This document shows, one piece after another, positions 38,511 through 57,487 of a stretch of DNA of 57,487 nucleotides. Position numbers and translations under genes: made by a program. The stretch comes from an uncultured Flavobacteriales bacterium (lineage in GTDB: Bacteria > Bacteroidota > Bacteroidia > Flavobacteriales_D > Sanyastnellaceae). The notes under the pieces were generated by a model. That model had not been told where the DNA came from. It worked only from the letters and a program-made list of their open reading frames with translations, and did no database searches. Location of the stretch: NCBI GenBank assembly GCA_905480095.1, contig CAJQPF010000040.1:1-57487 (forward strand). Direction: 5' to 3'. Numbering within the stretch: the stretch's first letter is position 1; each line of letters opens with the position of its first letter.

Positions 38511-41500
38511 ATGAAAAACGACATTCAATCAAACAATTGTACGATGCGTATATTAATTACATTTACTCTAGCACTTTTCTGCTTGACGGGCGCATTTGCT
38601 CAGCTAACACCTTTAAGTTCTATGCTATTCCAACCTGCACCTGAGGGTTACTGGTTGGGCGCGGAAGAATATGCGACACATACAGGCGGTGCGTTAGATG
38701 GCCAAACAACTTGGCGCATCTACATTCATTGTGTGAACGAAACAGATTATTTATCCTCTGTTTCTGGTGATGACAACAATACTTTTGAGCTGAATACGAC
38801 AACATCTTGGTATCAAAATGACTCTGGCGTCACCTTCGGGTCTGAAGCCAATACCGCATTTTATGCTTTTTTGCCTGACCTGGAATATGACAGTTGGTTA
38901 ACGATTGGTGCCGAAGACTCTGACGGAGGAGTGACTGTAAGTTCAATTACCGGTGACACTGACCCGTTTGCTGTTTTCGAAGCGGGAAACAACATGATTA
39001 TTGATGATGGTACCGGTTCTGCATGGTATTCACCTTTCCCAGGAACAGGCGACCTTACCTTGCCTTCCTTTGCGGGATCTGATTTAAAAGTTTTAGTCGC
39101 TCAGGTAACTACGGATGGCACTGTATCAGGTCAAATGCAGTTGCAGGTATTTATGAATGCTGACCAAACAGAAGAGTGGCGTGATGTGCTTCCTATTTTG
39201 TTCTCTAATCCATTAGGATGTACTGATGCGACAGCTTGTAACTACGATTCAGAAGCAACAGTGGATGACGGATCTTGTGAGGGTGTTGCTGAAGGAGCGT
39301 GTAACTGTGACGGTGACGTATTAGATGAATGTGGTATATGTGGCGGATCAGGTATCCCGGAGGGAGACTGTGACTGCGACGGAAACGTACTCGATGAGTG
39401 TGGCACATGTGGCGGATCAGGTATCCCAGAGGGAGACTGTGACTGCGACGGCAACATATTAGACGAGTGTGGCACATGTGGCGGATCAGGTATCCCAGAA
39501 GGGGACTGTGACTGTGACGGTAACGTCCTCGATGAATGTGGCACATGTGGCGGGTCAGGTATCCCAGAGGGAGACTGTGATTGTGACGGAAACGTCCTCG
39601 ACGAGTGTGGCACATGTGGCGGATCAGGTATCCCGGAGGGAGACTGTGATTGTGACGGAAACGTCCTCGACGAGTGTGGCACATGTGGCGGATCAGGTAT
39701 CCCAGAGGGAGACTGTGATTGCGATGGAAACCAGTTAGATGCTTTGGGCGTTTGTGGTGGTTCATGTGCAGCGGATGCTGACGGTGACAACATCTGTGAT
39801 GATGTTGATGACTGTGTAGGTGAACTTGATGAGTGTGGTGTTTGTAATGGCCCTGGAGCTGTTTACGAGTGTGGCTGTTCAGATACTCCTGCAGGCGACT
39901 GCGACTGTGACGGAAACCAGTTAGATGCACTGGGTGTATGTGGTGGAGATTGTGCTGATGATGCCGATTTTGATGGTATCTGTGACGATGTTGACGATTG
40001 TGTTGACCTTACAGGAAACGGTTGTGGAGTAGGAGGTTGTACGGATGCAAACAACCCTGGATTTGATCCATTTGCGACATTTGATGACGGGTCTTGTCTC
40101 ATTGGTGGATGTATGATTGAAGAGGCTTGTAACTATAACATTGAGGCTGAATACCAACAAGCAGGGGCATGTGAGTTTAGTAGTTGTGCTGGATGTACAG
40201 ATGCTTCGGCATGTAACTACGATGCAACTGCGACGATTGAAAATGGTTCATGTACTTACCCTGAAGCGTTCCTCGATTGTGATGGTGAGTGTTTGAACGA
40301 TTCTGATGGTGATGGTGTTTGTGATGAGCTTGAGGTTCTTGGATGTACTGAGCCTGGTAACCCAGCTTACAATCCATCTGCAACAGAAGATGACGGTTCA
40401 TGTTTGGTGGCTGGATGTCTCATTCCATTTGCATGTAACTATGACGCTGCTGCGGATTACATAGATGTGACGCTTTGTGACTTCAGTTCTTGTGTAGGAT
40501 GTACTGACCCAGATGCTTGTAACTACGATTCTGAAGCGACACTATCTTCTGCAGCGTTATGTACATATCCTTCGATTCCTTTCTTGGATTGTGATGGAGG
40601 TTGCGTGAATGACACTGACGGTGACGGCGTGTGTGATGAGCAGGAGATCCCTGGTTGTACTGACGAAGCAGCTGTGAACTTCAACCCTTATGCGACGGAC
40701 GACAATGGCACCTGTATCACATTGGTAGGTGGTTGTGTTCTTCCTTTTGCTTGTAACTACGAACCAGAGGCAGATTACTACTTGCCTGGGTCTTGTGATT
40801 TCTCATGCTTGTTCGGCACAGGAGAAATGGCAGGCGCAGGTTGTATGAATGAGTTGGCGTGTAATTACGGTGCGACGAATGAGCCATGTATGTTCTTCGA
40901 TCCAGAAGGCAATGTCTGTGTTCAAGGTGGATGTACCCATGAGTCGGCGTGTAACTTCGATGCTGAAGCTGTTTACAGCGATGGATCTTGTGACTTCAAC
41001 TCTTGTGCTGTATTCGGATGTAATGTAGCGGGAGCATGTAACTATGATTCTGAGGCTACTCAGAATAATGGCTCATGTAACTTCACGTCATGCTACGGAT
41101 GTACTGATTCTGATGCATTGAACTTCAATGAAGATGCATCTATTGACAATGGTACTTGTGCGATTGAAGGGTGTACAAACTCAGCGGCATGTAATTTCGA
41201 TGCATCTGCTACAGCGGACAATGGGTCTTGTAACTTCACGCAGTGTTATGCACTTGGATGTACAGACGCTACAGCGTGTAACTACGATGCTGAAGCTGGA
41301 GTCAATGACGGAAGTTGTCAGAATGCAGCAGATGGATTCGATTGTAACGGAAACTGCAATACAGATTCTGACAACGATGGTGTTTGTGATGCTGATGAAG
41401 TAGATGGATGTACTGATGCAGGTGCAAACAACTACGATACAGCGGCAACAGATAACGACGGAACATGTACATACAATTCTTACGGTTGTACGAACGATAT

Positions 41501-42125
41501 GGCGTGTAACTTCAACTATCAAGCAAACGACGATGATGGTACGTGTGAGTACAGTTCTTGTTACGGATGTATGAATGAAGGGGCTTGTAACTTCGAAGCA
41601 GAAGCGACACACCCATCTGAATGTACGTACGTATACCCGATGGAGATTTCCGGTTCGGAGACCCCAGTGGTGGGCGTAGAAGAAATGTATACTTACCCAA
41701 TGACTGCAGGTTCTGAATATGTTTGGACTGTAGAAGGCGGAGAGATCCTTTCTGGACTAGGAACGAGTCAAGTGCTGGTGAATTGGACTGAACAGGGTGG
41801 AAGCCTCACTGTAAAAGAGACAAACGCAGACGGTTGTGAAGGATTTGATGTTGTCATAGAGATTGAAACGGTCAGTGGAATCGTTGATCCTACTGCAGCA
41901 TTCAACATCTATCCTAACCCCGCAAACGATGTTGTAGTGGTGGTAAGTCATGACGCTGTGAAGCTTCTTACGATCTACGATGCTACGGGCCGTGTAGTTT
42001 ACTCAGAGCAGCTTAATGCTGGTCGTAGTAACATCGATGTGAGTGATCTGGCAAATGGTGCTTATAGGATCGTTGCTGATGCAAATTCAGGTCGTACCAT
42101 TCAAACGCTTGTGATTAGTCACTAA
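38511..42125 (+). CDS. Large Cys/Asp-rich modular secreted protein with T9SS type A C-terminal domain
   Basis: 1204 aa; signal peptide; about 18 GCTDxxACNYDxxATxDDGSC-like modules; [15 protein letters not shown] array; DGDGVCDE units; C-terminus [14 protein letters not shown]...[24 protein letters not shown]. Confidence 0.88.
39301..39731 (+). repeat. In-frame 69-bp tandem repeat (23-aa unit, about 6 copies)
   Basis: GGTATCCC(A/G)GA(G/A) recurs at 39351, 39420, 39489, 39558, 39627 and 39696, exactly 69 bp apart. Confidence 0.95.
40034..41640 (+). repeat. Array of diverged Cys-rich GC(T/M/L)xxxACNYDxxAxxxxGSC modules
   Basis: Successive modules: [63 protein letters not shown] ... [21 protein letters not shown]. 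Confidence 0.85.
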
Positions 42126-42178: not shown

Positions 42179-42262
42179 ACCCATACATATAGCATTTATT
42201 TTTATTTATGTTTGCTAAGTGCTTTAAGTTATTCCTATTTTATATTTCTAAATCATAAAGCC

Positions 42263-43573
42263 ATGAGACTTCTTTTTACAATTGTTATTTTTGCTTTAAG
42301 CTTAAATGCCATATCACAATCAACTAATTATTATTTCAATCCCGACTACAATGGGGATTCTTTTATTGGAATTGATGACATCCTCGGTGTATTGACTGCT
42401 TATGATAATGCTTGGAGTTACAATGCGGAGGACATCGCAAGTGGGGTAAGGGGCTGGACTTGCGGTGATCCATGGAATCATCAGGGTTATTGGTATAATA
42501 CAGTTGAAATTGGTGAAAAATGTTGGTTTCAAGAAAATCTGCGCGCATATCAATTCACGGGTCAATTCGTGGAATATCTAGATTTTTCTAATGAAGAAGG
42601 GGATTGGGTAAACGCCACCACTCCCCTTTGTAGCTATAGTATCCCCAATTTTGATAATCCGGAACAGGCCTTTGGGGACAGTCACTATGTTGATATCAAT
42701 GAGGAACGTAGAATGGAGAAAGGTTTGCTTTATAATTGGTACGCCGTTAATTCAGATTATATATGCCCAACCGGTTGGCATGTCTCTAATTATTTGGATT
42801 GGAGCGAGTTAAGCGGTACGGTAGCACAGACGTTTCAAGATATTTCAGTCTTTGGTACGGGGTTAGATGATGATCATGAATATGTGGGATCTGGTGGATT
42901 TGGACATATCGGGGACGAATTAAAGAGTGCAGACTTCGCAGGCGGTCACTTAGGCTGGACGGAACCGCACGGTGGATCAGATCCTATTTTACCATCTGAT
43001 AATCCCGATGTGAATTTAAGCGGATTTTCTGCAAAAGCCAGCTGGTTTCGTACAAGCCAAATTGACTACCCAGGCTGGAACCATAATCTTCCCAATGGAA
43101 GTTTAACATGGGCAGGTTCAGGAGGCTCTGTGTACCTTTCCCATGATATTGGATATGCAGCCCAGTGGTGGATTGCCGATACAGTCATTACGCCCAACGA
43201 CGCACAATATGGGTTGCCGGTCGGGGACCAACAAGAAGAAGCCTGGGGAGCCTGGAATTACCCGGAGTATCAGAGTGGTAACGAAGTAGGTATGATTGCA
43301 AGGGTTAATGAAAGTTTTAACCTATTAAATGATGTTGATGATATTGTTGACGTTAGGGCCTCTGAAAAATTTGCGGGCTATTCGGTCCGTTGTGTTAAGG
43401 GTTGTGAAATCCGTCCCACATGCTGCGATTGCTGGTGCATCGATCTTGATGTAGACGAAGACGGTATCTGCGATTCCGTGGACGACTGTATTTCAGACGC
43501 CATTGGTGTATGTGGCGGAGAATGTGAATATGATGATGATGGTGATGGGATTTGTGACGAAGAAGAAGATTAA
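42263..43573 (+). CDS. FISUMP (Fibrobacter succinogenes major paralogous) domain protein with Cys/Asp-rich C-terminal tail
   Basis: Signal peptide MRLLFTIVIFALSLNAISQ; GLLYNWYAVNSDYICPTGWHVSNYLDW ... GYSVRCVKG; tail DEDGICDSVDDC...DDDGDGICDEEED. Confidence 0.82.
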   Translation: MRLLFTIVIFALSLNAISQSTNYYFNPDYNGDSFIGIDDILGVLTAYDNAWSYNAEDIASGVRGWTCGDPWNHQGYWYNTVEIGEKCWFQENLRAYQFTGQFVEYLDFSNEEGDWVNATTPLCSYSIPNFDNPEQAFGDSHYVDINEERRMEKGLLYNWYAVNSDYICPTGWHVSNYLDWSELSGTVAQTFQDISVFGTGLDDDHEYVGSGGFGHIGDELKSADFAGGHLGWTEPHGGSDPILPSDNPDVNLSGFSAKASWFRTSQIDYPGWNHNLPNGSLTWAGSGGSVYLSHDIGYAAQWWIADTVITPNDAQYGLPVGDQQEEAWGAWNYPEYQSGNEVGMIARVNESFNLLNDVDDIVDVRASEKFAGYSVRCVKGCEIRPTCCDCWCIDLDVDEDGICDSVDDCISDAIGVCGGECEYDDDGDGICDEEED

Positions 43574-43725: not shown

Positions 43726-46185
43726 TTAACGTTCAATTTGAACTGCAGTAGCTTTGTCTCCGATGAGAAGTAGATAGTTACCTGCAACAATGTCTGTGAA
43801 GTTAAATTCGTGGAGACGAGCTTCTGTGGCGATGAGTACGCCACGAGCTGCTACAGATCCTCTCATGTCAATGAGTCTCCAATCAGAAGTACCCATCAGT
43901 GCTTTTGGAAGTTTGCAAGTGAATTGGCCCGTACTTGGATTGGGGAATGCAAACAACCCATCTGTAAGATCGCTATCTTCGTTTATGAGCTCTTCTAAGC
44001 CCACTGAGACGTTTATCTCTATGCATACTTGCTCTCCGATGCACCCGAAGGCGTTCGTTTCTTGTACACATACAAATCCAGGTCCTTCAGTTGCCCAAAG
44101 CAGGGATATTGCAAAAATATCCGACACCACTAAGGAGTCAGCACCCGAGAAGGTCCATTCGTAGGAACTTCCAGCCGTATATGAATATTCGTACACGCTA
44201 GAATCTCCAAACATGACTTCTGTATACCCATCTATTTCACCTTCTACAGGAATGACAGCTGAATTGACGGTGATTTCTTCGGAAACGGTACAGCCATTTT
44301 CATCCTCAACAGAAATGCTGTAATCTCCACCAGAAACAGAGAGCGGATCAATTCCGTCCCAATCAAATGTGAGTTCTCCAGTTCCGCCAGCAGCAGATGC
44401 TGTAACCGTACCTGAATTGGGCTCTGTACAGTTGGGCTCAGTGCTTTCTAATGAAAGTTGAATGGCAGGGGGAGCGAAGATGCTGAATTCAAGCGTCGTA
44501 GAGCAAAGGTTGTCATCGCTGACAGATACAGAATATTCACCTTCAGGAAGAGAACTTGGATCGTAGTTTCCGAAATAAATGTCATAGGGAGGGACCGCGC
44601 CTGTTACAAAAATATCGACAGATCCCTCACTAGAATAGGAACAAAGCGCATCTGATGTTGATTCTACATAAGTCACCAAATCGGTATCTTCATTCACGAT
44701 TTGAACGAAAGGAACACTTTCGTTGCCACAAGCATCTGTTGCAATAAATGTGCGTGTCAGCTCAACTGCAAGAGGGCACGTACCTGGTCCCAATTCTGAA
44801 ACGAGTTCGATATTTACCCCACTGCATAAGTCCTCAGCGAAGGGCATCCCGAAATCTTCAGTTTCAATAGACGATGAGATGACTTGTTCGGGCAGTAACT
44901 CAGTCCAAATCGGTCCACTTTCGTCATTGACTTCAATGACCTGTTCTACCGTAGCGCTGTTTCCACAAGCATCAGTGGCTGTCACCAAACGATATATAGA
45001 ATATCGTCCTTCACATTCACCCATTAGAATCGACTCTTCATCAATATCATAGGTCACAGGGGAGCTGCAAGCATCTTGGGCCACAGCGTTTTCGAATTCA
45101 GGAAGAATCGGGCACGTGGTCGAAATGGGCGCCGTTCCTCCGACAAAGGATGGAGGCGTATTGTCAATCACGTTAATCGTTTGAGAATATTCAACCTGCC
45201 TGTCCATGCAGTCTGTGCCAAGCCAGTGACGAACAATCGTGTAATTGCCAGGGCAACTTCCCTCGATTGTCGTTTCATCCATCTCAACAGTTACGGTCCA
45301 TTCTGCGGCATAACAATTCCCATCGGGGTTGTGTTGTTCCTCAAACTCCGAAGCGAAAGAAGAGATACTCGCATATACAGTAGGCGGGGAGGGGACGTTT
45401 GAACAGGTGACATCCATGTCATCAGGAGCATTGTTGAAAGTTGGAAGGAGGTTGTTGCCGTTGCAGTCTTCATCACTATTTGCATATGCACATGATCCAT
45501 CATTATCTGTTGCGAGAATCATGAAATTACAAGCAAATGTGTCTGTACATCCTCCGATTTCAAACATGTCACAAATCCCATCAGCATCAGTGTCGGTAAT
45601 ACAATCTCCGAAACAATCATATCCGAAGGAAGGGTATTCACAAAATGAGTTGTCTTCAAATGAAGCATCTGGGTTGAAATTACATGCTAACGGGTCCATG
45701 CAATCCCCTTGATCACATACGCCAAATAATATAATGTCTAAATCATAATTTGCACTGGCACTCCCAAAGTTCCATCCATTTTGCAAATCAAAAAACCACG
45801 TCCCATCTCCGCTGATTCCAGCAGCCACGGCACTCACTGTATAAGTGTAAAATCCATTTGCACTAGAGGTCCAGCTTGTGGGGAAATCAATATCATAACA
45901 TGTTGAAGGCGGGTTAATGTTATATCCTTCACCGGCCATGCAGTTTCCGTTTGCACCAGTAATGACTGCAATCATATCCGCAGGCCATTCACCGCCACCT
46001 GCAGAAAAATTAAGGTTAAACTGTATTTGAGTGAGTGTTCCTGTTAAGAACATGTTTTGGCTTGTGCTCTGTCCCCCTCCAAGCGTTACATCAAAACTCA
46101 CAGTTGTATTGCATTGACTTTGTCCCATAAAAGGGATGGTCATGAGTGCCATTGCCACAATTAAATGCCTGAATATTAATTTCAT
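43726..46185 (-). CDS. Secreted HYR-like/modular protein with T9SS type A C-terminal domain
   Basis: 819 aa; signal peptide; GDCMDPLACNFNPDASFEDNSFC and GCTDTFACNFMILATDNDGSC modules; DACGNSATVEQVIEVND; C-terminus LFAFPNPSTGQFTCKL...IVAGNYLLLIGDKATAVQIER. Confidence 0.82.
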   Translation of the reverse strand: MKLIFRHLIVAMALMTIPFMGQSQCNTTVSFDVTLGGGQSTSQNMFLTGTLTQIQFNLNFSAGGGEWPADMIAVITGANGNCMAGEGYNINPPSTCYDIDFPTSWTSSANGFYTYTVSAVAAGISGDGTWFFDLQNGWNFGSASANYDLDIILFGVCDQGDCMDPLACNFNPDASFEDNSFCEYPSFGYDCFGDCITDTDADGICDMFEIGGCTDTFACNFMILATDNDGSCAYANSDEDCNGNNLLPTFNNAPDDMDVTCSNVPSPPTVYASISSFASEFEEQHNPDGNCYAAEWTVTVEMDETTIEGSCPGNYTIVRHWLGTDCMDRQVEYSQTINVIDNTPPSFVGGTAPISTTCPILPEFENAVAQDACSSPVTYDIDEESILMGECEGRYSIYRLVTATDACGNSATVEQVIEVNDESGPIWTELLPEQVISSSIETEDFGMPFAEDLCSGVNIELVSELGPGTCPLAVELTRTFIATDACGNESVPFVQIVNEDTDLVTYVESTSDALCSYSSEGSVDIFVTGAVPPYDIYFGNYDPSSLPEGEYSVSVSDDNLCSTTLEFSIFAPPAIQLSLESTEPNCTEPNSGTVTASAAGGTGELTFDWDGIDPLSVSGGDYSISVEDENGCTVSEEITVNSAVIPVEGEIDGYTEVMFGDSSVYEYSYTAGSSYEWTFSGADSLVVSDIFAISLLWATEGPGFVCVQETNAFGCIGEQVCIEINVSVGLEELINEDSDLTDGLFAFPNPSTGQFTCKLPKALMGTSDWRLIDMRGSVAARGVLIATEARLHEFNFTDIVAGNYLLLIGDKATAVQIER

Positions 46186-46283: not shown

Positions 46284-47447
46284 TCAACATGCGGTACCGA
46301 ATACCGACAGTAATTCTAGCAAATCACTCACAGTTGTTATTCCGTCACCATTAATATCTGTTGTACATCCAGAAGTACATCCAAATTCAGATAGGATTAA
46401 CAACAAGTCTGCAACGGTGACGCTACTGTCACTATTTAAGTCGCCAAAGCAGTCCACAATAGGGTTACAGCTTCCGTCGTCGTAATCTGCTGCTGCATTG
46501 TAGTTAGACGCAGCGCTATCCGTACAACCTCCAAGTCCGACCGTCACAGTCCCAACCATGCCTAGCGCAGCGTGCTGTCCGATAGAACAGTCGTAAGTAT
46601 AGACCCCAGGAATTGTAAATGTGTGTGAACCCATGCATACACCGGAAGGGCTGCCAGATATAGCCGGCAATGAGAATGCTTCTGGATTTCCAAATGAGAG
46701 ATCTGTTTGAGAGTCTACGTTTCCATTCACATCGTGAAATCCACCATAGTTGACCCAGTAAACAAGGGTGCCAACATCGACGCTTAAGTCTGTTTCTGTG
46801 TAGGAATAGCTAATGGTTGCAACCTCAATACCATCAAGGTTACATGGATTTAGAATGCATGACCCATCATCTATTACAGCTTCAGGGTTATAATTTGTAG
46901 CATTGACATCCATACATCCTTCAACACCAAAATCAATAAATAGAGAACCGAACATTTGTTCTTGTCCAAATGGAAATCCAAAGACCGTTGTCCACCCTTT
47001 TACGGTGATGTCAGCCCTAAAATTGCCTGATATAGTAGGTGTCCCTTCGAGACTGGCACAATATTGATTTCCACCATGAAAAGAGCATGGGTAATTTGAA
47101 TCGCCATTGTTGTTGCATACAACTTGTAATCCCAATTCATCCAATGTATAAGAAGTAAGAGTGTCATCTAAATCTACCATGACAAGACTCACTAACTCAA
47201 TAGAATCAAGTAATGCAGTTGGCGCAAAAGGGAGGGTAGAATCAATTTCAAGAACGTAGGTTGGGATTAAGAGATGCAGAACATCATAATATGGTTCGTC
47301 AGTAATTCCAGGCTCAAATTGTTCGCCTTGACTTGGGTCAGGTGAGCTTCCATATGTTTCACTTCCGAAATCAAAATCTGCAGTACATTGACCTGATACA
47401 GATCCAAGAATAAAGATGGCGAAAAAGCCGATGAGTATATTTTTCAT
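46284..47447 (-). CDS. Secreted protein with cupredoxin-like domain and C-terminal dockerin-like EF-hand pair
   Basis: Start MKNILIGFFAIF (ORF extends to 47492); GGFHDVNG ... YTYDCSIGQHAALGMVGTVTV; C-terminus DLNSDSSVTVADLLLILSEFGCTSGCTTDINGDGITTVSDLLELLSVFGTAC*. Confidence 0.78.
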   Translation of the reverse strand: MKNILIGFFAIFILGSVSGQCTADFDFGSETYGSSPDPSQGEQFEPGITDEPYYDVLHLLIPTYVLEIDSTLPFAPTALLDSIELVSLVMVDLDDTLTSYTLDELGLQVVCNNNGDSNYPCSFHGGNQYCASLEGTPTISGNFRADITVKGWTTVFGFPFGQEQMFGSLFIDFGVEGCMDVNATNYNPEAVIDDGSCILNPCNLDGIEVATISYSYTETDLSVDVGTLVYWVNYGGFHDVNGNVDSQTDLSFGNPEAFSLPAISGSPSGVCMGSHTFTIPGVYTYDCSIGQHAALGMVGTVTVGLGGCTDSAASNYNAAADYDDGSCNPIVDCFGDLNSDSSVTVADLLLILSEFGCTSGCTTDINGDGITTVSDLLELLSVFGTAC

Positions 47448-47482
47448 TTTTCTATTTTTATGTGGTATAAAGATAAGTTTAG

Positions 47483-49354
47483 TTATGGACAAATCGTTCC
47501 GAATACAGCGAGAATTTGAAGTAAATCAGCGACGCTGACCAAATCATCTTCGTTGAGGTCGGTTTCGCAATTTGAAGTACATCCAAATTCTGCAAGAAGC
47601 TCAAGTAAATCTGTAACAGTAATAACACCATCATTGTTGAAATCACCAAAGCATGTTGCGTATATGCAACTCTCATCATTTACTGTGGCACTTGGATCGT
47701 AGTTGTCAGCCATAGGGTCTGTACAACCTGAAATCGTTAGAATCTCATCATCTTCTATAATTGTGTTGCAATCGTTATCTATTCCGGACAACGTGCCAGC
47801 GCCACCTGGAAACATTAATGCCTCAAGGTCATTGCAGTCTTCACTGTTAAAGGCATATGGAGTGGTGTTTGAAGGGTCACATCCGTTGACAGGGGAGTTG
47901 ATGTCTCCATACCCATCTCCATCAAGGTCAGCCCAAACATCAAGTCCCTCAAAAACGGTAATGGTTTCGGTGTCAAAAAATTCTGCACTGATTGTTTCAG
48001 TAATATTTATCACAGCAACATTTCCACCTCCATAAATAGTGTAAGCACCTGCGCCAGTTGCAAAAAAACTTGTTGAACCTAAGTTGTCATCACTGGTGAA
48101 TGGGCCATCTTGATCGTAAAAGGTCACATTATAGTTTTCTCCATATGTTAATGCAATATTTAAGTCATTAAAATTTGCAGTCATTTGATCAGTAACAACA
48201 GATGATGTATACGATATGTCACCATTTAACACGAAATAGGGGTCAGGGTTGCCTAATCCAAAGAAGTCTTCAGCATCACCTCCCCAGCCATCACCAAGTT
48301 GTATAATTTCTAATGAGGTGAGTGTTAACTGAGTTACAGTCGTAGCTAATGAAATCGTGTATGATCCTGGCTCATCATACAAAACACTGGGATTAGAAGT
48401 GTTTAAAACACAACCATTTGCAAGATTATTCTCGTCAATGGTAAAGTTATGGATCGCATTCCCGCCAAAATTTCCACCTTCAACTATTTGAGCAAGGATG
48501 TTTCCACTTCCATCCGTGAGTAAATAGCTTCCTATGACCCCTTCGAATTGCATGCCATCTCCATAACTGTCATTAATGCTTAATGTATAGCTTCCTGGTC
48601 CCACACATATTTGTTCATTATAAATTGTTTGGGCCTCTGAATAGGGGCCCCCAGAGATTATCAAGTCTCCATTAGAATTTGTGACAATCCATGTCGTTTC
48701 TGCTGGGTAATTGTCCGTTAAAATTTCCAGATTGATCACAGAACCATTTGATGGTCCCCCAAAATCCCAATTGTATGATACGCCTGCACCAGTGATGAGG
48801 TTTTCAATATCAACATTTAAGGGTGAACACCCAGAATTTTCAGAGACATTAAAGCTCGCATTTCCACCTCCAGAACCTTGAAGAATGCTAAGGGGGAGTG
48901 AAAAGCTTTCACTCAGGCTCTGAGTGATGCCAAAGACAGAAGCCACCACCGCTACATTAATGGTTACAAAGTACTCGCCAGCAGCAAGAGGAACGCCACA
49001 TATTGTAGCACAGCCGTATTCTTCACCGTTTGAAGGATAGTAAACGCCGTTAGGGTTGCTCGGAGTCAATGATAATCCAAAAGGGAGACCTGTTATGCTT
49101 GTGATAGTAATGCTCTCTAATGTTGCGGAAAGTCCAGATCCTGGGTCAACAACTGAGGCAGGCATGTTGAAAGTTGCAGTAGACAAATATTCTACACCTG
49201 TTGTTCCGTCTGGAAAAGCAGTAGGACAAAGTACAGGAAAGCCATCAGCAACACATGTGTAATCAGGAGTGCAAGATGAACATTGAGAAAATGCAGAAGC
49301 GGAGACCATCATGATGGTCGCCGCTCCGAGCAGTTGAATATATTTAAAAGTCAT
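47483..49354 (-). CDS. Secreted multidomain protein with MopE-like metal-binding motif and C-terminal dockerin-like EF-hand pair
   Basis: 623 aa; signal peptide; LTDNYPAETTW...INDSYGDGM module; WADLDGDGYGDINSPVNGCDPS...GIDNDCNTIIED; C-terminus DFNNDGVITVTDLLELLAEFGCTSNCETDLNEDDLVSVADLLQILAVFGTICP*. Confidence 0.78.
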   Translation of the reverse strand: MTFKYIQLLGAATIMMVSASAFSQCSSCTPDYTCVADGFPVLCPTAFPDGTTGVEYLSTATFNMPASVVDPGSGLSATLESITITSITGLPFGLSLTPSNPNGVYYPSNGEEYGCATICGVPLAAGEYFVTINVAVVASVFGITQSLSESFSLPLSILQGSGGGNASFNVSENSGCSPLNVDIENLITGAGVSYNWDFGGPSNGSVINLEILTDNYPAETTWIVTNSNGDLIISGGPYSEAQTIYNEQICVGPGSYTLSINDSYGDGMQFEGVIGSYLLTDGSGNILAQIVEGGNFGGNAIHNFTIDENNLANGCVLNTSNPSVLYDEPGSYTISLATTVTQLTLTSLEIIQLGDGWGGDAEDFFGLGNPDPYFVLNGDISYTSSVVTDQMTANFNDLNIALTYGENYNVTFYDQDGPFTSDDNLGSTSFFATGAGAYTIYGGGNVAVINITETISAEFFDTETITVFEGLDVWADLDGDGYGDINSPVNGCDPSNTTPYAFNSEDCNDLEALMFPGGAGTLSGIDNDCNTIIEDDEILTISGCTDPMADNYDPSATVNDESCIYATCFGDFNNDGVITVTDLLELLAEFGCTSNCETDLNEDDLVSVADLLQILAVFGTICP

Positions 49355-49398
49355 GGTTCAGTTTTATGTGTATTAAGAGTACACAAGATACTGAAAAA

Positions 49399-51816
49399 TT
49401 AACAAGTTGTACCAAATGCTGCAAGTAGCAGTAAGATATCTGAAACGTTCACATACGTATCGCCATCTACATCAGCTGTACAGCCTGACAAACATCCGAA
49501 TTCAGACAGAACAAGTAATACGTCAGCAACTGTAATGACGCCATCTCCATTGATGTCACCTGTACATGTACAAGATTCGTAATCACAGAGCTCGTAATCT
49601 GTGGCTGATGCTACGTAGTTGCAGGCTTCAGGATCATCACACCCAGCAATTTCATTTTCATCACATACGCCATCATTGTCAGAATCGTTGTTACATACAC
49701 AGTAACATTCTTCAATAATTAGACAATTCACTTCATCCACTTCAGTAAAGAAAGCAGTGTATGTCGCAGGATCAGTAAACGAACATTCGCAATCTGTTAC
49801 TATTAAATCAAATTCTTCACATGCATCACAGATTCCATCTTCATCGAGATCTTGTATACAGTTTCCACCACAGTCATATCCAATGGCAGCGTAAGTACAG
49901 CTTCCGTCATCAATTGTGGCCTCTGAATTGTAATTACATGCTTGATTATTCGTACACCCAGCTGTGGAGCCAGCAGTCACACAAAAATTAGTGGTCTCTG
50001 TAGAGACGAATTCACCCCCTGAAACCAACGTGTTTCCATCTGATGTTATGCTGTAGTTTCCTTCTCCATATGCACAGCAAATCCCATCTCCGTAACTGTC
50101 ATTGATTGTGACATCATAACATCCAGTGGCCACACATGCTGAGGACGTAAAAGTCGTGCCATTGGAAGCGTAAGGGCCGCCAGACATGATTGTCGCTCCC
50201 GAAGCGTCTGTGACGCTCCATGTCGTTTCATCGGGGTAGTTGTCTGTGAGTATAGTGAAAATCACTTCTACACCATTCCCGATACAAGACCCATCATCAA
50301 TGGTTGCAGATGAACCATAGTTGCATGAGGTGGGGTCAGTACATCCTGTACATGAACTGCCATCTCCACCACAAATTCCACACACATCATTGTCTACACA
50401 ACTTCCATTGTCTGAGGTTGCTTCAGGGTCGTAGTTACACGCAGTTGAGTCTGTACAACCAGCACCAGGAACGGCATTCGTCGGGTAGCTGTCAAGTGTG
50501 TTTACGCCTGTATTTAAAGGATCTAAGTATTGAGACGCACCAAGGCCCCAACTCACGTTGAATCTTCCGTAGAAATCATATGCACCATTATTTACAGAGC
50601 CGGAACACGCGGCAGCTCCGCCGTAAAGTTGACCTATAATGCGGTGATTCTGATCAAAAAGTGGTGAGCCAGATGATCCGGGTTCAGTCACTCCCAACTC
50701 CCACTCATCAATCCACCAAACCTGAGCACCTCCAGTACTACTTTGGTAAGGCGCATCGTTTTCAAAACAGATTTTTTTAAGATCGCCACTTGGGTGATGA
50801 ATTCCTACAGCAGACGAAGGTGTCGATCCAGAATGATCCCAACCGGCATATTCAACATTGTAGCTTGCTGGTGGAGTCGAACTCAACTCAATAAGCGCAA
50901 AATCAGACCCCCCGTTTTGAACAAGGAGTGTGCCTCCAGACACGCTTTGGTTTGTAGGGCCTGTTGTGCCAGAACATGAACTGCTTTCATGGTTGAAATA
51001 ATACACCCATGTATTGGGGGTTCCGATACAGTGATTTGCCGTTAGAAAATAAGGTGTGCCATCGTTTGCTGTGTTGTTGATCATCGCACCTGTGCAATAA
51101 GCAGATCCACCATTTACAATTAACGCGACAGATCTTTTTTCTGTTTGCCAGTCAGCGCCTTCTGGACAATTAACATTGATGTTACAAGCACCAGAGTTTC
51201 CAAACGGTCCCAATCTTTCAACCATTTCAGCCAAAACAGCTTCTTGGTGATTCAAAAGGGAACGGTATCCGTGAATGACTTGATTCACTTCGATCTCACC
51301 CATTCCATGCGATGCGGGTGATTCGTGGTATTCTAGAATCATAGAAGAGCCATCGAGTACCCCAAGTGAGAGCCCCTCCCAATCTTTGTTGTTTTCTTGT
51401 GTAAAAGAACCTAGAAAAGCTGTTCTTTGAGCGTTGTAGACGTAAAGTTGCGCTTCTTTTGGCAACACAAATCTTGAAAGCATGAAGCTTACATTTAGTG
51501 CATTGGGGCAATTAAAGCCAAGCCTCCATACGTGCTTGCCATCTTCGAACGTCCAAGTACCTGAATTTTCAAGATTGAAAGCCACTTCTTGCTCAACACC
51601 AAATCTCCATGGCGCTTCTTTGTGTTGGTCAGTAACTGCATCTTCTAAAGCAAGAGCGGCGAGGTCAACGTCGGGCATCTGTTGCATCTCAATTACAGGT
51701 TGATAAGTAGCATCTTCCCAATTTAATGGTGATCCTCCGTGGGAAATTTGTGCGATTGTTGCAGTAGAGAAAATGACTCCTAAAAGTAAAAGGAATATGT
51801 TTTTACAGTTGTACAT
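49399..51816 (-). CDS. Secreted lysyl-endopeptidase-like trypsin-fold serine protease with Cys-rich modules and C-terminal dockerin-like EF-hand pair
   Basis: Start MYNCKNIFLLLL preferred (ORF to 51846); AYCTGAMINN...PYFLTANHC, SDFALIEL, TEPGSSGSPLFD catalytic motifs; GCTDSTACNYDPEATSDNGSC; C-terminus DINGDGVITVADVLLVLSEFGC...VSDILLLLAAFGTTC*. Confidence 0.85.
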   Translation of the reverse strand: MYNCKNIFLLLLGVIFSTATIAQISHGGSPLNWEDATYQPVIEMQQMPDVDLAALALEDAVTDQHKEAPWRFGVEQEVAFNLENSGTWTFEDGKHVWRLGFNCPNALNVSFMLSRFVLPKEAQLYVYNAQRTAFLGSFTQENNKDWEGLSLGVLDGSSMILEYHESPASHGMGEIEVNQVIHGYRSLLNHQEAVLAEMVERLGPFGNSGACNINVNCPEGADWQTEKRSVALIVNGGSAYCTGAMINNTANDGTPYFLTANHCIGTPNTWVYYFNHESSSCSGTTGPTNQSVSGGTLLVQNGGSDFALIELSSTPPASYNVEYAGWDHSGSTPSSAVGIHHPSGDLKKICFENDAPYQSSTGGAQVWWIDEWELGVTEPGSSGSPLFDQNHRIIGQLYGGAAACSGSVNNGAYDFYGRFNVSWGLGASQYLDPLNTGVNTLDSYPTNAVPGAGCTDSTACNYDPEATSDNGSCVDNDVCGICGGDGSSCTGCTDPTSCNYGSSATIDDGSCIGNGVEVIFTILTDNYPDETTWSVTDASGATIMSGGPYASNGTTFTSSACVATGCYDVTINDSYGDGICCAYGEGNYSITSDGNTLVSGGEFVSTETTNFCVTAGSTAGCTNNQACNYNSEATIDDGSCTYAAIGYDCGGNCIQDLDEDGICDACEEFDLIVTDCECSFTDPATYTAFFTEVDEVNCLIIEECYCVCNNDSDNDGVCDENEIAGCDDPEACNYVASATDYELCDYESCTCTGDINGDGVITVADVLLVLSEFGCLSGCTADVDGDTYVNVSDILLLLAAFGTTC

Positions 51817-51922
51817 GACGATAATGGTTTTCGATTCGTTCGACATAAAGACGCTTACATCATCAATAAGTTGCGTGAGAACTTAATTTAAGTTAAATTG
51901 TAAAAGTTATAACTGATACAGT

Positions 51923-53653
51923 ATGAGATGTTTCACCGGATATTTAAACTTTAAAAAACATATTTGGCTATGTTTTTTTCAGGTTTTTATGTCATGTCTG
52001 TGTCTTCCATCAGTAAATGCACAATTTGTAAATGCATCCAATGATTTGCAATTGTTCACAGATCATACCGGTGGATTTTTAGGTTCAGGTTTAAGTTTTG
52101 CTGATTTTAATGGAGATGATATTGATGACCTCACCTTTGGTCATCATGCAGGTCAAATCAGATATTATCAAGGAGATGGGGTAGGGTTTGAAGAAATCCA
52201 ATTGAATATTGACAATGGTGTCAACGAGTCAAAATCAGTTCTATGGGCTGATATTGACAACGATGGAGATCAAGATTTACTCATTACAAATCGCAATGCC
52301 TCCAATCGACTTTGGATGAATAGTGGAAACATGCAGTTCACAGATATTACATCCTCATGTGGGATTTCAACATCCAGTATTTCAAGAAGTTATGGTGCTT
52401 CTTTTGGAGATTATGACAATGATGGATTCATTGATTTGTACATATGTAATTATCATACAGACGTCATCAACATTAAAAATGAACTGTATCACAACAATGG
52501 TGATGGGACTTTTACCGATGTTACGGTCTCTTCAGGTGTAGGAAATGGTTTGCAACAATCTTTTCAAAGTACCTGGATTGATATTGATAAAGATCGCTTT
52601 CTAGACCTCTATGTCATCAACGACAGACTTGATTATCCAAATTCATTTTATCTTAACAATGGAGATGGCACCTTTGTAGATATGGGTCCTGTTTGGGGAG
52701 CTGACTTGGAAATTTATGCGATGAGTTCAACATTTGCGGATTATGATTGTGATGGTGACATGGATTTATACGTTACAAACGGTTCTGCTGGAAATGTCCT
52801 TTTATCAAACAACCTGAATCAGGGCATGGGTTTTGTAGATGTGACGTCATCTTTGGGCGTTGAAGTCAATCAACTTTGTTGGGGTGCTTGTTTTATTGAT
52901 CATCTCAATGACAGTTGGTTAGACTTATATGTAGGCACTGGATTCAGTGTATATACAGACTACCCCAACATCTTTGAAGAATATCCTGCGCTTTCAAATG
53001 CTTTTTTCACCTCCAACGGTACTGGTTCTCTGGATGTTTCTTCAGAATTGTCTGAAGAGTTACAGCATACATTTGCGATGTCAACAGGAGATTTTAACAA
53101 TGATGGATTCCCTGATCTCGTCTCTCACCAAGTAGGGCTAAATGCAAGCGTGATCAGTGCGATTCCAAATGAAAATCACTATCTTAAAGTAAGGCCTCAG
53201 GGTACAACTGTGAACAGAGATGCAATTGGTTCCGAAGTATACGTGTATCATTCTTCAGCAGAAAATACGGGAGTGAATGCAGTCAAACTTGATGTGGTTT
53301 TTTGTGGTGATAAATACCTTAGTCAAAACTCCAGACACCTTCAATTTGGTCTCGGGTCAAGTACTCAAGTGGATTCGGTAGTCATACAATGGCCAGGAGG
53401 TTTCCCAGAAACATTTCTGGGAATTTCCATTGACAGCTCAGTCGTTTTAGTTGAAGGCTCTTCAATTCAAGATTGCCCAAACCCTGCATCTTTCTGTGGT
53501 TCAGGTACGATTTGGGATGAGGCAACACAGACTTGTGTTTCTTTCCAGGAAGATCTGTGTCCGACCGATGTAAATAATGATGGCTTTACATCCATTCAAG
53601 ACTTGCTTGAGCTTTTAGGTCAGTTCGGCACATTATGTCCCACCACTTGGTAA
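51923..53653 (+). CDS. FG-GAP/VCBS repeat protein with ASPIC/UnbV-like C-terminal domain and single dockerin-like motif
   Basis: 576 aa; FADFNGDDIDDLTFG, WADIDNDGDQDLLITN, FGDYDNDGFIDLYICN; RDAIGSEVYVYH...LGSSTQVDSVVIQWPGG; C-terminus DVNNDGFTSIQDLLELLGQFGTLCPTTW*. Confidence 0.82.
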   Translation: MRCFTGYLNFKKHIWLCFFQVFMSCLCLPSVNAQFVNASNDLQLFTDHTGGFLGSGLSFADFNGDDIDDLTFGHHAGQIRYYQGDGVGFEEIQLNIDNGVNESKSVLWADIDNDGDQDLLITNRNASNRLWMNSGNMQFTDITSSCGISTSSISRSYGASFGDYDNDGFIDLYICNYHTDVINIKNELYHNNGDGTFTDVTVSSGVGNGLQQSFQSTWIDIDKDRFLDLYVINDRLDYPNSFYLNNGDGTFVDMGPVWGADLEIYAMSSTFADYDCDGDMDLYVTNGSAGNVLLSNNLNQGMGFVDVTSSLGVEVNQLCWGACFIDHLNDSWLDLYVGTGFSVYTDYPNIFEEYPALSNAFFTSNGTGSLDVSSELSEELQHTFAMSTGDFNNDGFPDLVSHQVGLNASVISAIPNENHYLKVRPQGTTVNRDAIGSEVYVYHSSAENTGVNAVKLDVVFCGDKYLSQNSRHLQFGLGSSTQVDSVVIQWPGGFPETFLGISIDSSVVLVEGSSIQDCPNPASFCGSGTIWDEATQTCVSFQEDLCPTDVNNDGFTSIQDLLELLGQFGTLCPTTW

Positions 53654-53694
53654 TTCGTTCACACCAAACGATATTAGCAAAAATTGATTGAACA

Positions 53695-54417
53695 ATGGGA
53701 AGAGCATTTGAATTTAGGAAGGAGCGGAAGATGAAGCGATGGGCAGCGATGTCAAAAATATTTTCAAGACTCAATAAAGATATTATTATTGCCATTAAGG
53801 ACGGAGGCAATGCTGATCCTGAGACGAACTCTACCTTAAGAGCTGTATTGCAAAACTGCAAAGCAGCAAATATGCCCAAGGACAATATTGCCAGGGCGAT
53901 CAAGAAAGCGACTGACAAAGATACCTCGAACTATAAAGAAGTCACCTTTGAAGGTTATGGTCCCCACGGTGTTGCTGTGTTCGTCGAAACGGCGACAGAT
54001 AACAACAACAGAACTGTAGCGAGCATAAGAAGCGACTTTTCACATAACGGTGGCAACCTTGGAACAACTGGGAACGTTGAGTTCCTGTTTAACAGGGTTT
54101 GTTTTTTCAATGTTAAGAGTGAGGGGCAAGACCCTGAGGACCTCGAACTCGAACTCATCGATTATGGCGCAGAGGAAATCGAAGTCGATGGAGATACAAT
54201 CGTTGTTACGGCTCCTTTTGGTTCATTTGGTGGTCTTCAGAAAAAGCTTGAAGAAATGAATCTTGAGATTGAAGAATCTGGGTTTGATCGATACCCGACA
54301 ACGACTTCTGAACTCAATGCAGAACAAACGCTTGAAGTTGAAAAATTAATTGAGAAATTAGAGGAGAATGAAGATGTCCAAAATGTTTTCCATACAATGT
54401 CCTCTTCGAGTGATTAA
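53695..54417 (+). CDS. YebC/PmpR family transcription/translation regulator
   Basis: 240 aa; MGRAFEFRKERKMKRWAAMSKIFSRLNKDIIIAIKDGGNADPETNSTLRAVLQNCKAANMPKDNIARAIKKA. Confidence 0.95.
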   Translation: MGRAFEFRKERKMKRWAAMSKIFSRLNKDIIIAIKDGGNADPETNSTLRAVLQNCKAANMPKDNIARAIKKATDKDTSNYKEVTFEGYGPHGVAVFVETATDNNNRTVASIRSDFSHNGGNLGTTGNVEFLFNRVCFFNVKSEGQDPEDLELELIDYGAEEIEVDGDTIVVTAPFGSFGGLQKKLEEMNLEIEESGFDRYPTTTSELNAEQTLEVEKLIEKLEENEDVQNVFHTMSSSSD

Positions 54418-54473
54418 GTCGAAAACTCTAAGTGATACGTAACCTTAGCCATAGATTTGCGTATTTTAAGGCT

Positions 54474-57400
54474 ATGTACCGTCAAAATTATATTCATAGG
54501 ATCGTTTTCCCGGTCATCTTATGTGTCCATTTTTTAGGTATAGGAGCATATGCGCAAGAAAATAACTCATGGCAAAATCAACTTCAGGACGTCAATATAT
54601 CTTCCGAGGAAGTGAGGCAAAACTTTGGCTTGACTTGGCCAGAACTTGATGCCGTTCCTCGAAGTAACGGAAAGAAACCATTTGAAAGATGGGCATGGTG
54701 GACAGAACGAAGAACGAAGCCTCATGGGACAAGGCCACCATCAAAAGCATGGTGGGATGCCTCTCAAGAATTAAAGCAAACACTTTTATATCCCTCTTCA
54801 GGGCCTTCTTGGTCTTACATCGGAAATGAAGATATCCCAGTATATGGTGGTGCCGGTAGAGTGAATAATATTGTTGTTTTTGATGGTGGATGGTTGGCGT
54901 GTGCTCCCTCAGGTGGTTTGTGGTTATCTGATGACGAAGGAGAATCATGGAACACAGCAGGGGGAGGTGTAGATGAACTTTCTGCGGTTGGAACCACGGA
55001 TGTCATTGTTGATCCAGACAATCCCAATCATTGGTTTTTGGCAACAGGAGATGGTGATGGAGCAACTACGTATAGTATCGGACTGCTTGAGACATTTGAT
55101 TCAGGCGCAAATTGGACAACGACAGGGTTAGCGATGCCAGAGGGCAACCAGAAAATATTTAAGATTGCCTTTCAGCCCGGCAGTCCCAACGTGGTGTATG
55201 TCTGTTCTAGCACTGGACTATATCGTTCCGAAGACGCTGGCGTATCATTTAATTCTTTGAAAACAGGAATTGTGAGAGATATGGTGATTCATACAGACTC
55301 GACTCACATCCTTACCATTGCATTAGATAATGTCGGCGTTTACAGATCTGTAGATTCAGGTTTATCATGGACAAATATTCCGCTACCCCAGTCTGAAGGT
55401 CTTGGGAGAATGGAACTTGCTTCAAGTGTGTCTCATCCAGATCGCATATATGCTTTCGTTGCAAATTATTTTGCTCAGTCGACCATGGGTGTGTGGCGAT
55501 CAGATGACGGTGGCGTATCCTTTTATCCCACAATGCTTCGCGCAGAGGGAGGTCCAAACCTACATGGTTGGACCAGCGATGGCTCTGATTATTCAGGTCA
55601 GGCTTGGTGGGATATGTGCATCGCTGTTGACCCTTTTGATGAAAACAAAATTGTCTTAGGTGGCGTTAATTTGTGGGAATCTAATGATGGTGGATATTCA
55701 TGGAATTGCGAGGCCCATTGGTCAGGGCAGGGGGAGTACCCTCAGGTTCATGCGGATCAGCACGGTCTGACATTTCTTTCAGACGGTCGTTTGCTCGTTG
55801 CAAATGATGGTGGTGTTTACCTGCGTGACGGCTCAGGCCAATACGCTGACAAATCTGATGGGCTTGACATTGCCCAAATATCTCGTTTGGGGCTCAGTCC
55901 ACACAAACATTCAGATTTGATTTGTGGGACCCAGGACAACGGAACTTCATTATACAATCAAGATGGCTGGCAACGTATTCTCGACGGAGATGGAATGGGG
56001 TGTTTCTTTCATCACTTAGACTCAAATATTCTATTTATGAGTGCGTATTACGGTCTATTATACCGCTCAACAGATGCAGGGAGATCAAATACTCAGATTG
56101 CAAATTACAGCGGTTTCGGTATCAACGAAGTCGGGAATTGGCTTACCCCTTGGTTGGCCAGCCCTCATAACCCGGAGATTATTTATGTAGGGAAGAAATC
56201 GGTGTATCGGTCAGATGACGCTGGTGATACATGGAGCACACTTGGAACGATGAGTGATACCAAAGCAGATGCCATTGCCCTTTCAGCAACAGACCCGAAT
56301 ATGATCCTCGTTGCAAAGCGAGATGAGTTGTGGCGTTCGACAAATGGGTATGATTTCACAGCGCTTTTAAATCTTCCTGATGAAACCATCGGTGATGTAT
56401 TGATTTCTTCATCTGATTCGAATGAGATATGGGTTTGCTTCGGCAGCTATACAAATGCGATGCAGGTATGGGTGTCATATGATGGCGGAGGATCATGGGA
56501 AGATAAATCACTCGGTCTTCAGGCCCTTCCAGTGAACACATTGGTTGAATCACCTGACGGCACAATCTATGCAGGAACTGATTTGGGTGTCTATGCTTAT
56601 GATGAGGTGTCAGGTTGGTCTATTTACGGTGATGGACTTCCACTTACAATCATTACTGATCTTGAAATCCGCACAGCTACAAACCGGTTGGTCGCCGCGT
56701 CTTATGGGAGAGGGGTTTGGGAAGTTGAATTGCCTTCGCTACCATCTTTAGATCTCACTGCATTGGGATTAGACGATTTCGACAAACTTCAATGTAATTG
56801 GGAGTTCACGTGTGCTCCTACGTTTTTAAACTCCGGAACAGACCCAGTGTTTTCTGTTAAATACGCGGTGAATTGGGATGCCAACGAAGCTGTCATTCTT
56901 CATCATTTCACTACCCCATTAAATCCAAATGAAACAATCGTTCTTCCTTTATCATCCCACCAAGTGGACAGTACAGGAACACGAATCATATCCATTCATA
57001 TTCTTGAAGTCAATGGGGGGCTAGACGAAATGGATAACAACAATTCAGTCTATGAAAGCTGTACCGTTTCAGGTTTGGGGTATCGCGGCACTTTGACAGA
57101 ATGGGCAGGATGTAATGCAGAAGACTTAAGATGGTCTCTGGCGTTTGAAGGAGAATCATCAAACATATTAGAATCTACTCCGATACCTGCTGGAGATACG
57201 TTGACTAGAATACTATGCCTTCCCGAGGGGTGTTTGGTTCTTCAATGGGATGATGAGGATGGAGATGGTTGGCTCGATACATATTGTGCTGAGGCGGGTG
57301 GATTTGTTTGGTTAAGTCCATTTGATGAAGTGCTTGCAACAAGTGTCAATTCAGTGTTCTCAACAACGAATTCATTTTCACATTGTGTAGATACACCATG

Positions 57401-57487
57401 GTGTTATTCCGATTTTGATGGAGATGGAGAAAGAACTGTCACAGACCTGTTGTGGGTGCTTTCAGAGTATGGATGTTTGTCAGGCTG
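54474..57487 (+). CDS. Secreted BNR/sortilin-like beta-propeller protein running into a dockerin-like segment (3' truncated by window)
   Basis: Frame open from ATG 54474 to window end (not listed in ORF track); signal peptide MYRQNYIHRIVFPVILCVHFLGIGAYAQ; SDDEGESWNTAGGGV, RSEDAGVSF, VYRSVDSGLSWTNI; last residues CYSDFDGDGERTVTDLLWVLSEYGCLSG. Confidence 0.82.
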   Translation, partial: MYRQNYIHRIVFPVILCVHFLGIGAYAQENNSWQNQLQDVNISSEEVRQNFGLTWPELDAVPRSNGKKPFERWAWWTERRTKPHGTRPPSKAWWDASQELKQTLLYPSSGPSWSYIGNEDIPVYGGAGRVNNIVVFDGGWLACAPSGGLWLSDDEGESWNTAGGGVDELSAVGTTDVIVDPDNPNHWFLATGDGDGATTYSIGLLETFDSGANWTTTGLAMPEGNQKIFKIAFQPGSPNVVYVCSSTGLYRSEDAGVSFNSLKTGIVRDMVIHTDSTHILTIALDNVGVYRSVDSGLSWTNIPLPQSEGLGRMELASSVSHPDRIYAFVANYFAQSTMGVWRSDDGGVSFYPTMLRAEGGPNLHGWTSDGSDYSGQAWWDMCIAVDPFDENKIVLGGVNLWESNDGGYSWNCEAHWSGQGEYPQVHADQHGLTFLSDGRLLVANDGGVYLRDGSGQYADKSDGLDIAQISRLGLSPHKHSDLICGTQDNGTSLYNQDGWQRILDGDGMGCFFHHLDSNILFMSAYYGLLYRSTDAGRSNTQIANYSGFGINEVGNWLTPWLASPHNPEIIYVGKKSVYRSDDAGDTWSTLGTMSDTKADAIALSATDPNMILVAKRDELWRSTNGYDFTALLNLPDETIGDVLISSSDSNEIWVCFGSYTNAMQVWVSYDGGGSWEDKSLGLQALPVNTLVESPDGTIYAGTDLGVYAYDEVSGWSIYGDGLPLTIITDLEIRTATNRLVAASYGRGVWEVELPSLPSLDLTALGLDDFDKLQCNWEFTCAPTFLNSGTDPVFSVKYAVNWDANEAVILHHFTTPLNPNETIVLPLSSHQVDSTGTRIISIHILEVNGGLDEMDNNNSVYESCTVSGLGYRGTLTEWAGCNAEDLRWSLAFEGESSNILESTPIPAGDTLTRILCLPEGCLVLQWDDEDGDGWLDTYCAEAGGFVWLSPFDEVLATSVNSVFSTTNSFSHCVDTPWCYSDFDGDGERTVTDLLWVLSEYGCLSG

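Follow-up and report, generated by a model that had tools for sequence, protein, structure and literature searches.

A dockerin-type C-terminal tail alternates with the type IX sorting domain on exported proteins of a marine Flavobacteriales family

Tail-bearing genes of the window

The window analysed here, a stretch of 57,487 nucleotides from an uncultured Flavobacteriales bacterium, is the complete contig C40 of a 2.1 Mb Bacteroidota metagenome-assembled genome (MAG; 165 contigs, 83.5% complete). Five of its genes encode exported proteins with an EF-hand repeat, the F-hand, which in the four complete proteins forms a Cys-capped tail at the C-terminus. A hidden Markov model (HMM) built from the eight repeats on these five proteins recovers them with E-values from 8.6e-16 to 3.2e-13, and a loose regular expression of the motif gives eight matches in the window against none in 100 dinucleotide-Markov surrogates. 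An earlier sequence-only reading of this DNA had picked out the same five genes, and the HMM confirms the motif in each of them where that reading had seen it.

Three of the tails, all on the minus strand, are double, with the endings that had been described. The cupredoxin-like protein (46284-47492; Copper-bind PF00127, 28.3 bits) carries its tail at 46287..46451, made of repeats at 46371-46451 and 46287-46367 (E 3.2e-14 and 9.0e-15) and ending in FGTAC before the stop codon. Beside it, a MopE/PKD-like protein (47483-49354) has its tail at 47489..47653, with repeats at 47573-47653 and 47489-47569 (E 8.6e-16 and 4.1e-14) and the ending FGTICP. The third gene, 49399-51846, encodes a trypsin-like (Trypsin_2) protease (PF13365, 33.2 bits) whose tail at 49402..49566 combines repeats at 49486-49566 and 49402-49482 (E 5.2e-15 and 3.2e-13) and closes with FGTTC.

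The remaining two genes lie on the plus strand. An FG-GAP/ASPIC protein (51923-53653) has a single-hand tail at 53558..53650, its repeat at 53558-53638 (E 5.0e-15) leading to the ending FGTLCPTTW. In the sortilin/BNR-like protein, whose gene starts at 54432, the first F-hand lies at 57402..57482 (E 1.7e-15) and the contig end interrupts the tail, as had also been recognised. A relative (L107) has a BNR-type gene likewise adjoining YebC, and there a second hand followed by a stop completes a full double tail.

Genome-wide use and cargo

Sharing of the tail extends well past the five proteins to which the sequence-only reading had limited it. The genome holds 83 HMM places for the repeat, and 44 open reading frames (ORFs) have a terminal tail of one or two Cys-capped F-hands; a stop codon closes 42 of them, and contig ends truncate the other two. 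A sixth window gene carries half a module, described below. In 39 of 40 closed ORFs for which this was counted, 0-4 residues separate the last Cys from the stop. About half of the 44 tails are double and half single (about 20 of 44). In double tails, Cys 1, 25, 29 and 55 do not vary, nor do several Asp residues of the loops, and in sampled relatives the single tails keep the Cys at both ends.

Most of these proteins appear to be exported: a crude signal peptide test is positive for 29 of the 31 whose 5' ends are closed. Their cargo domains include trypsin-like and reprolysin proteases, PHB-depolymerase and PETase-like esterases, and the nucleases ExeM and endonuclease I, together with lysyl oxidase, pyrroloquinoline quinone (PQQ) dehydrogenase, arylsulfotransferase, cupredoxin, ASPIC and choice-of-anchor B proteins. 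As in the window, tail genes tend to cluster, two or three neighbouring genes per contig (contigs C2, C30, C114, C133, C136 and C38 of the same genome). A tail search in plasmids gave no match.

Predicted fold and nearest families

The tail had been called dockerin-like, and the models point to more than resemblance: the double-hand tail is predicted to have a true dockerin-type fold. When the tail profile is compared with PDB sequences, dockerins of cellulosomal proteins rank first (best E 4.7e-06). The AlphaFold model of the double tail of the window protease, based on a 40-sequence alignment, reaches a predicted local distance difference test (pLDDT) score of 94.7 and has helices at residues 13-21 and 41-49. 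Foldseek returns the type II dockerin 2y3n_B as its top match (template modelling score, TM, 0.88; root-mean-square deviation 1.1 Å), followed by other dockerins. The single-hand model, made for the FG-GAP/ASPIC tail, is less sure (pLDDT 81, predicted TM score 0.46), and single-hand tails fall outside this fold assignment.

Named families capture the tail in part. Pfam Dockerin_1 (PF00404) gives 18.4 and 18.0 bits for the two window proteins listed, below its cut-off of 22.9, and reaches three of the 44 tail proteins at E ≤0.001 (best 8.2e-05). The GC-type dockerin NF041540, a dockerin-like domain on which NCBI bases names of anchored proteins, reaches E ≤0.01 on 15 of the 44 (best 3.7e-08) and is the nearest named family; the individual scores seen, 21.4 bits for the cupredoxin-like protein, 14.4 for another window protein and 25.4 for a relative, all stay under its cut-off of 29. 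No literature on NF041540 was found in the library searched.

Compared with type I and II dockerins (PF00404; PDB 2y3n, 2b59), the tail shares two F-hand calcium loops with their helices and its use as a tag on diverse exported cargo. It differs by a Cys at both ends of each hand, a shorter linker, many single-hand versions, scores under the Pfam cut-off in the window, and the lack of a recognisable cohesin in tail-rich genomes. Judging by the conserved loop and Cys residues, the tail would bind calcium and form disulfides.

Substitution for the type A sorting domain

The type IX secretion system (T9SS) reads C-terminal domains (CTDs), of which the type A CTD (TIGR04183, PF18962) resembles the tail in its position on homologous proteins, its similar cargo and its numbers, dozens per genome. 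The two are unrelated in fold and sequence and never stand on one protein. In this genome, 44 tails coexist with 58 type A domains, and by coordinates no tail ORF coincides with any of the 63 TIGR04183 places or with the 17 of the type B domain TIGR04131. The proposal that unrelated exported cargo shares a terminal tag as an alternative to the type A domain, mutually exclusive with it, is thus borne out. Six ORFs that seemed to combine tail and CTD were rejected, their internal HMM matches being weak (12.8-15.2 bits) and not CTDs.

The same alternation appears when proteins homologous to the protease domain of the window gene, or to choice-of-anchor B, are located in 61 genomes of the organism's own family and sorted by their endings. 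In both families, every closed and classifiable homologue has either a tail or a type A CTD (or, for some choice-of-anchor B proteins, a third ending), and never both. The trees are quick ones, built without bootstrap. The trypsin-like tree holds 48 CTD rows, 17 tail rows and none with both, requiring at least two changes of label. The tail clade of the window protease (10 rows, SH-aLRT 98) is nested inside a CTD clade, and its sister is a CTD clade largely covering the same genera. Fourteen genomes, including the present one, have one trypsin paralogue of each kind; here the pair consists of the window protease, with its tail, and a CTD protein on contig C116 (TIGR04183, 27.3 bits), at 65% identity.

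Choice-of-anchor families are so named because their anchor varies between lineages, and this counts in favour of an anchoring or sorting tag. The choice-of-anchor B tree contains 40 tail rows, 40 rows with canonical CTDs, eight with the third ending and none with both tail and CTD. It needs two changes when the third ending is left out and three when it is included, one of them a tail pair of genus g92 inside a CTD clade. The third ending, LGREVxxxxNQxVFxxYxDGSxEKxF near the stop, occurs in L157:1432-3723 (contig C100 of the same genome), L161, L257, L152 and others, and is neither tail nor TIGR04183. Reading these DGSxEK-type endings as divergent CTDs was dropped, as the four tested gave no TIGR04183 match at their ends; they are possibly another CTD-like class.

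In genera g87 and g102, all homologues of these two families with readable ends carry CTDs. Across the 61 genomes, the density of tails falls as that of CTDs rises (rho -0.54, with CTD numbers taken from first-look candidates); per genus, the relation is not significant (rho -0.37, p 0.10).

Two window neighbours of the tail genes had been contrasted with them as CTD bearers. A CTD is absent from all five tail genes, as had been stated for the four complete ones, and the protein at 38511-42125 (plus strand) does have a type A sorting domain, at 41907..42116 (TIGR04183 38.5-44.2 bits, cut-off 23), and no tail. The exported protein at 43726..46185 (minus strand), also tail-free, has a PNP..GxY ending that resembles a type A CTD but scores 14.2 bits, below the cut-off. 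The first of these neighbours contains long tandem repeats, especially at 39242-39930, as well as GCTDxxACNYDxxATxDDGSC repeats, and such ACNY repeats are common to CTD-bearing and tail-bearing proteins.

Distribution in the phylum and the family

Among 149 genomes sampled from the phylum, expansion of the repeat is confined to the organism's own family, represented by two genomes with 55 matches each. Elsewhere in this sample, the only matches are a single one in an order-mate and weak ones in three other genomes. Within the family sample of 61 genomes (with genera labelled g1, g2, g86 and the like), repeat numbers range from 0 to 84 per genome at E 1e-6. Repeat-rich genera include g1, g2, g86, g88, g89, g92, g93, g95 and others, and nearly all genomes of g90, g91, g94 and g99-g102 are repeat-poor, with 1-18. 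Genus g87 has none at this threshold; a looser one gives one repeat in each of the two g87 genomes searched again.

Named relatives with the tail, found with an alignment of four close rows, are marine Flavobacteriales and Crocinitomicaceae MAGs. In these, the module is terminal in 139 of 150 closed ORFs, largely upholding the C-terminal position, and N-terminal or internal in the other 11. A restriction of the tail to T9SS-positive genomes, named earlier as a point to check, agrees with the expansion being found only in a family in which 61 of 61 genomes have TIGR04183 domains; this uniformity makes presence and absence uninformative on T9SS dependence. One record titled as an archaeon (L132, PBNL01000015.1, Euryarchaeota archaeon SP189) encodes two double-tail proteins side by side, one of them similar to choice-of-anchor B, and is in all likelihood a Bacteroidota bin that was mislabelled or mixed.

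Search for a partner

The sequence-only reading saw no cohesin beside the tail genes, and none becomes recognisable when tail-rich genomes are searched. Cohesin PF00963 is absent from the organism's genome and passes its cut-off in five of the 61 family genomes. The tail-rich genomes G159 and G190, both near-closed, and the complete G045 give nothing, although divergent cohesins could escape such a search.

A conserved locus present in two families (L340, L341, L342, L346 and L358; G178:C4, G183:C46, G201:C14, G193:C12 and G041:C3) places a tail gene next to CTD proteins. It comprises the end of a TonB-type receptor, a CTD protein, a FISUMP lipoprotein, a membrane protein of about 220 residues, a single-hand tail protein of about 590 residues (no Pfam match in the two tested) and a CTD protein with Big_7. 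The tail gene, ending CPTDLNLDGTTDVNDFLIFAPAFGTSCN or similar, adjoins T9SS-CTD proteins in tail-poor genera and in G041, which belongs to another family of the order. The Big_7 CTD protein has weak cohesin-like and internal dockerin-like segments; its cohesin match is weak in several tail-poor genera, and by sequence the cohesin-like region finds no cohesin in PDB. As a scaffold partner for the expansion, this protein was rejected, being limited to g90, g91, g94 and g102 and lacking from every tail-rich genus. The locus may preserve an ancestral use of the single-hand tail, and it does not explain the expansion.

N-terminal and internal copies

The sixth window gene (42212-43573, plus strand) encodes a FISUMP-domain protein (PF09603, 60.4 bits) with a divergent half module at 42344..42403 (HMM E 0.037), directly after the signal peptide. 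FISUMP proteins of L118:2695-3528, L048:301-1083 and L122:1049-1630 have a divergent half F-hand in the same place. At the conserved locus of other genera, in a biased sampling, FISUMP proteins have a lipobox there. A module placed after the signal peptide, where relatives have a lipobox, favours a function in attachment.

What the tail may do

The best explanation, to which we assign a probability of about 0.62, is that the tail is a dockerin-derived tag for surface sorting or retention that replaces the T9SS CTD, binds calcium and is probably stapled by disulfides. The argument is that the tail does what the CTD does on paralogues. It would thus probably be a second, undescribed address label, bringing proteins to the cell surface or holding them there. 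Tail proteins would cross the inner membrane by Sec, and the tail would then take over the job that the type A CTD performs on their paralogues, letting them reach or stay on the outer surface. There it would bind one common receptor, which may belong to the T9SS, as a shuttle of the PorV or PorP/SprF kind, or be a surface protein distinct from it; both the surface location and the shared receptor are what we infer. A sorting, anchoring or assembly role, proposed from the window alone, agrees with a tag that is shared and swapped with the CTD, but with copies at N-terminal and internal positions as well, a role as C-terminal export signal does not follow.

Several observations weigh against this explanation. 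A single F-hand makes up some of the tails, which sets these apart from classical dockerins. Switches from CTD to tail are few, at least two changes per tree, so the substitution is not hugely replicated. The N-terminal copies have diverged further and may serve another function, and their comparison with the lipobox comes from a biased sample. Clustering the neighbours of tail genes revealed no recurrent receptor or shuttle candidate and no PorV/PorP-like gene. There is also the question of export. In the T9SS, CTDs are required for passage across the outer membrane and are served by dedicated shuttles (PMC12618676), so proteins without one must be exported by another route or the T9SS must read the tail, a point that stands against a role in retention alone.

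The second possibility raised by this question, that the translocon reads the tail through a dedicated shuttle, would make it a new class of T9SS signal, fourth beside types A, B and C (PMC10202324), and can be entertained tentatively. The terminal position in most carriers, the swapping with a CTD to which the tail is never joined, and the presence of TIGR04183 in every family genome all fit, and the CTD types described so far already differ among themselves and rely on different shuttles (PMC10202324, PMC12618676). It accounts poorly for the N-terminal and internal copies, for the small size and two short helices of the EF-hand fold, where type A has an Ig-like beta-sandwich, and for the lack of a recurrent PorV/PorP-like gene beside tail genes. 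Its fuller form, in which one marine family captured a dockerin as a fourth, EF-hand type IX signal with its own shuttle, parallel to type A, seems rather unlikely.

A genuine cohesin-dockerin system would instead assemble tail proteins on a surface scaffold that carries cohesins, the arrangement of cellulosomes and of the planctosome, a non-cellulosomal system proposed in freshwater Planctomycetes (PMC6461901). The fold and sequence of the tail agree with this, and the planctosome model likewise joins non-cellulosomal dockerins to reprolysin-type proteases; the pairing of a tail gene with a CTD protein, weakly cohesin-like in several tail-poor genera, points the same way. That model, however, has cohesin-bearing anchor and adaptor proteins, and none was found for the tail: the few PF00963 hits, the empty result in three tail-rich genomes, and the restriction of the cohesin-like CTD protein to tail-poor genera, together with its missing PDB match, render such a system improbable. 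Least probable of all is a stabilising cap or calcium-binding filler with no targeting role, comparable to thrombospondin-type and ACNY repeats. Cys-rich and calcium-binding repeats abound in these proteins, and dockerin-like modules of unknown role are widespread, Ruminococcus albus having dockerins without cohesins (PMC4081043). A filler would not be expected to keep a fixed terminal position, alternate strictly with the CTD and spread to about 44 unrelated proteins, and should export by the T9SS depend on a CTD, proteins that had switched would fail to be exported.

Implications

To our knowledge, proteins without a type A, B or C signal are not counted as T9SS cargo. Titles and abstracts on T9SS, dockerins and sorting, subscription papers lying outside this scope, describe no such tag. 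The tail raises the question of whether a dockerin domain can serve as an export or surface-retention signal without a cohesin, and paralogue pairs that share a catalytic part and differ in their endings offer natural test constructs. In this family, a tag of a different fold takes the place of the CTD on secreted enzymes by the dozen, and estimates of the surface and secreted proteome that rely on CTDs alone may fall far short.

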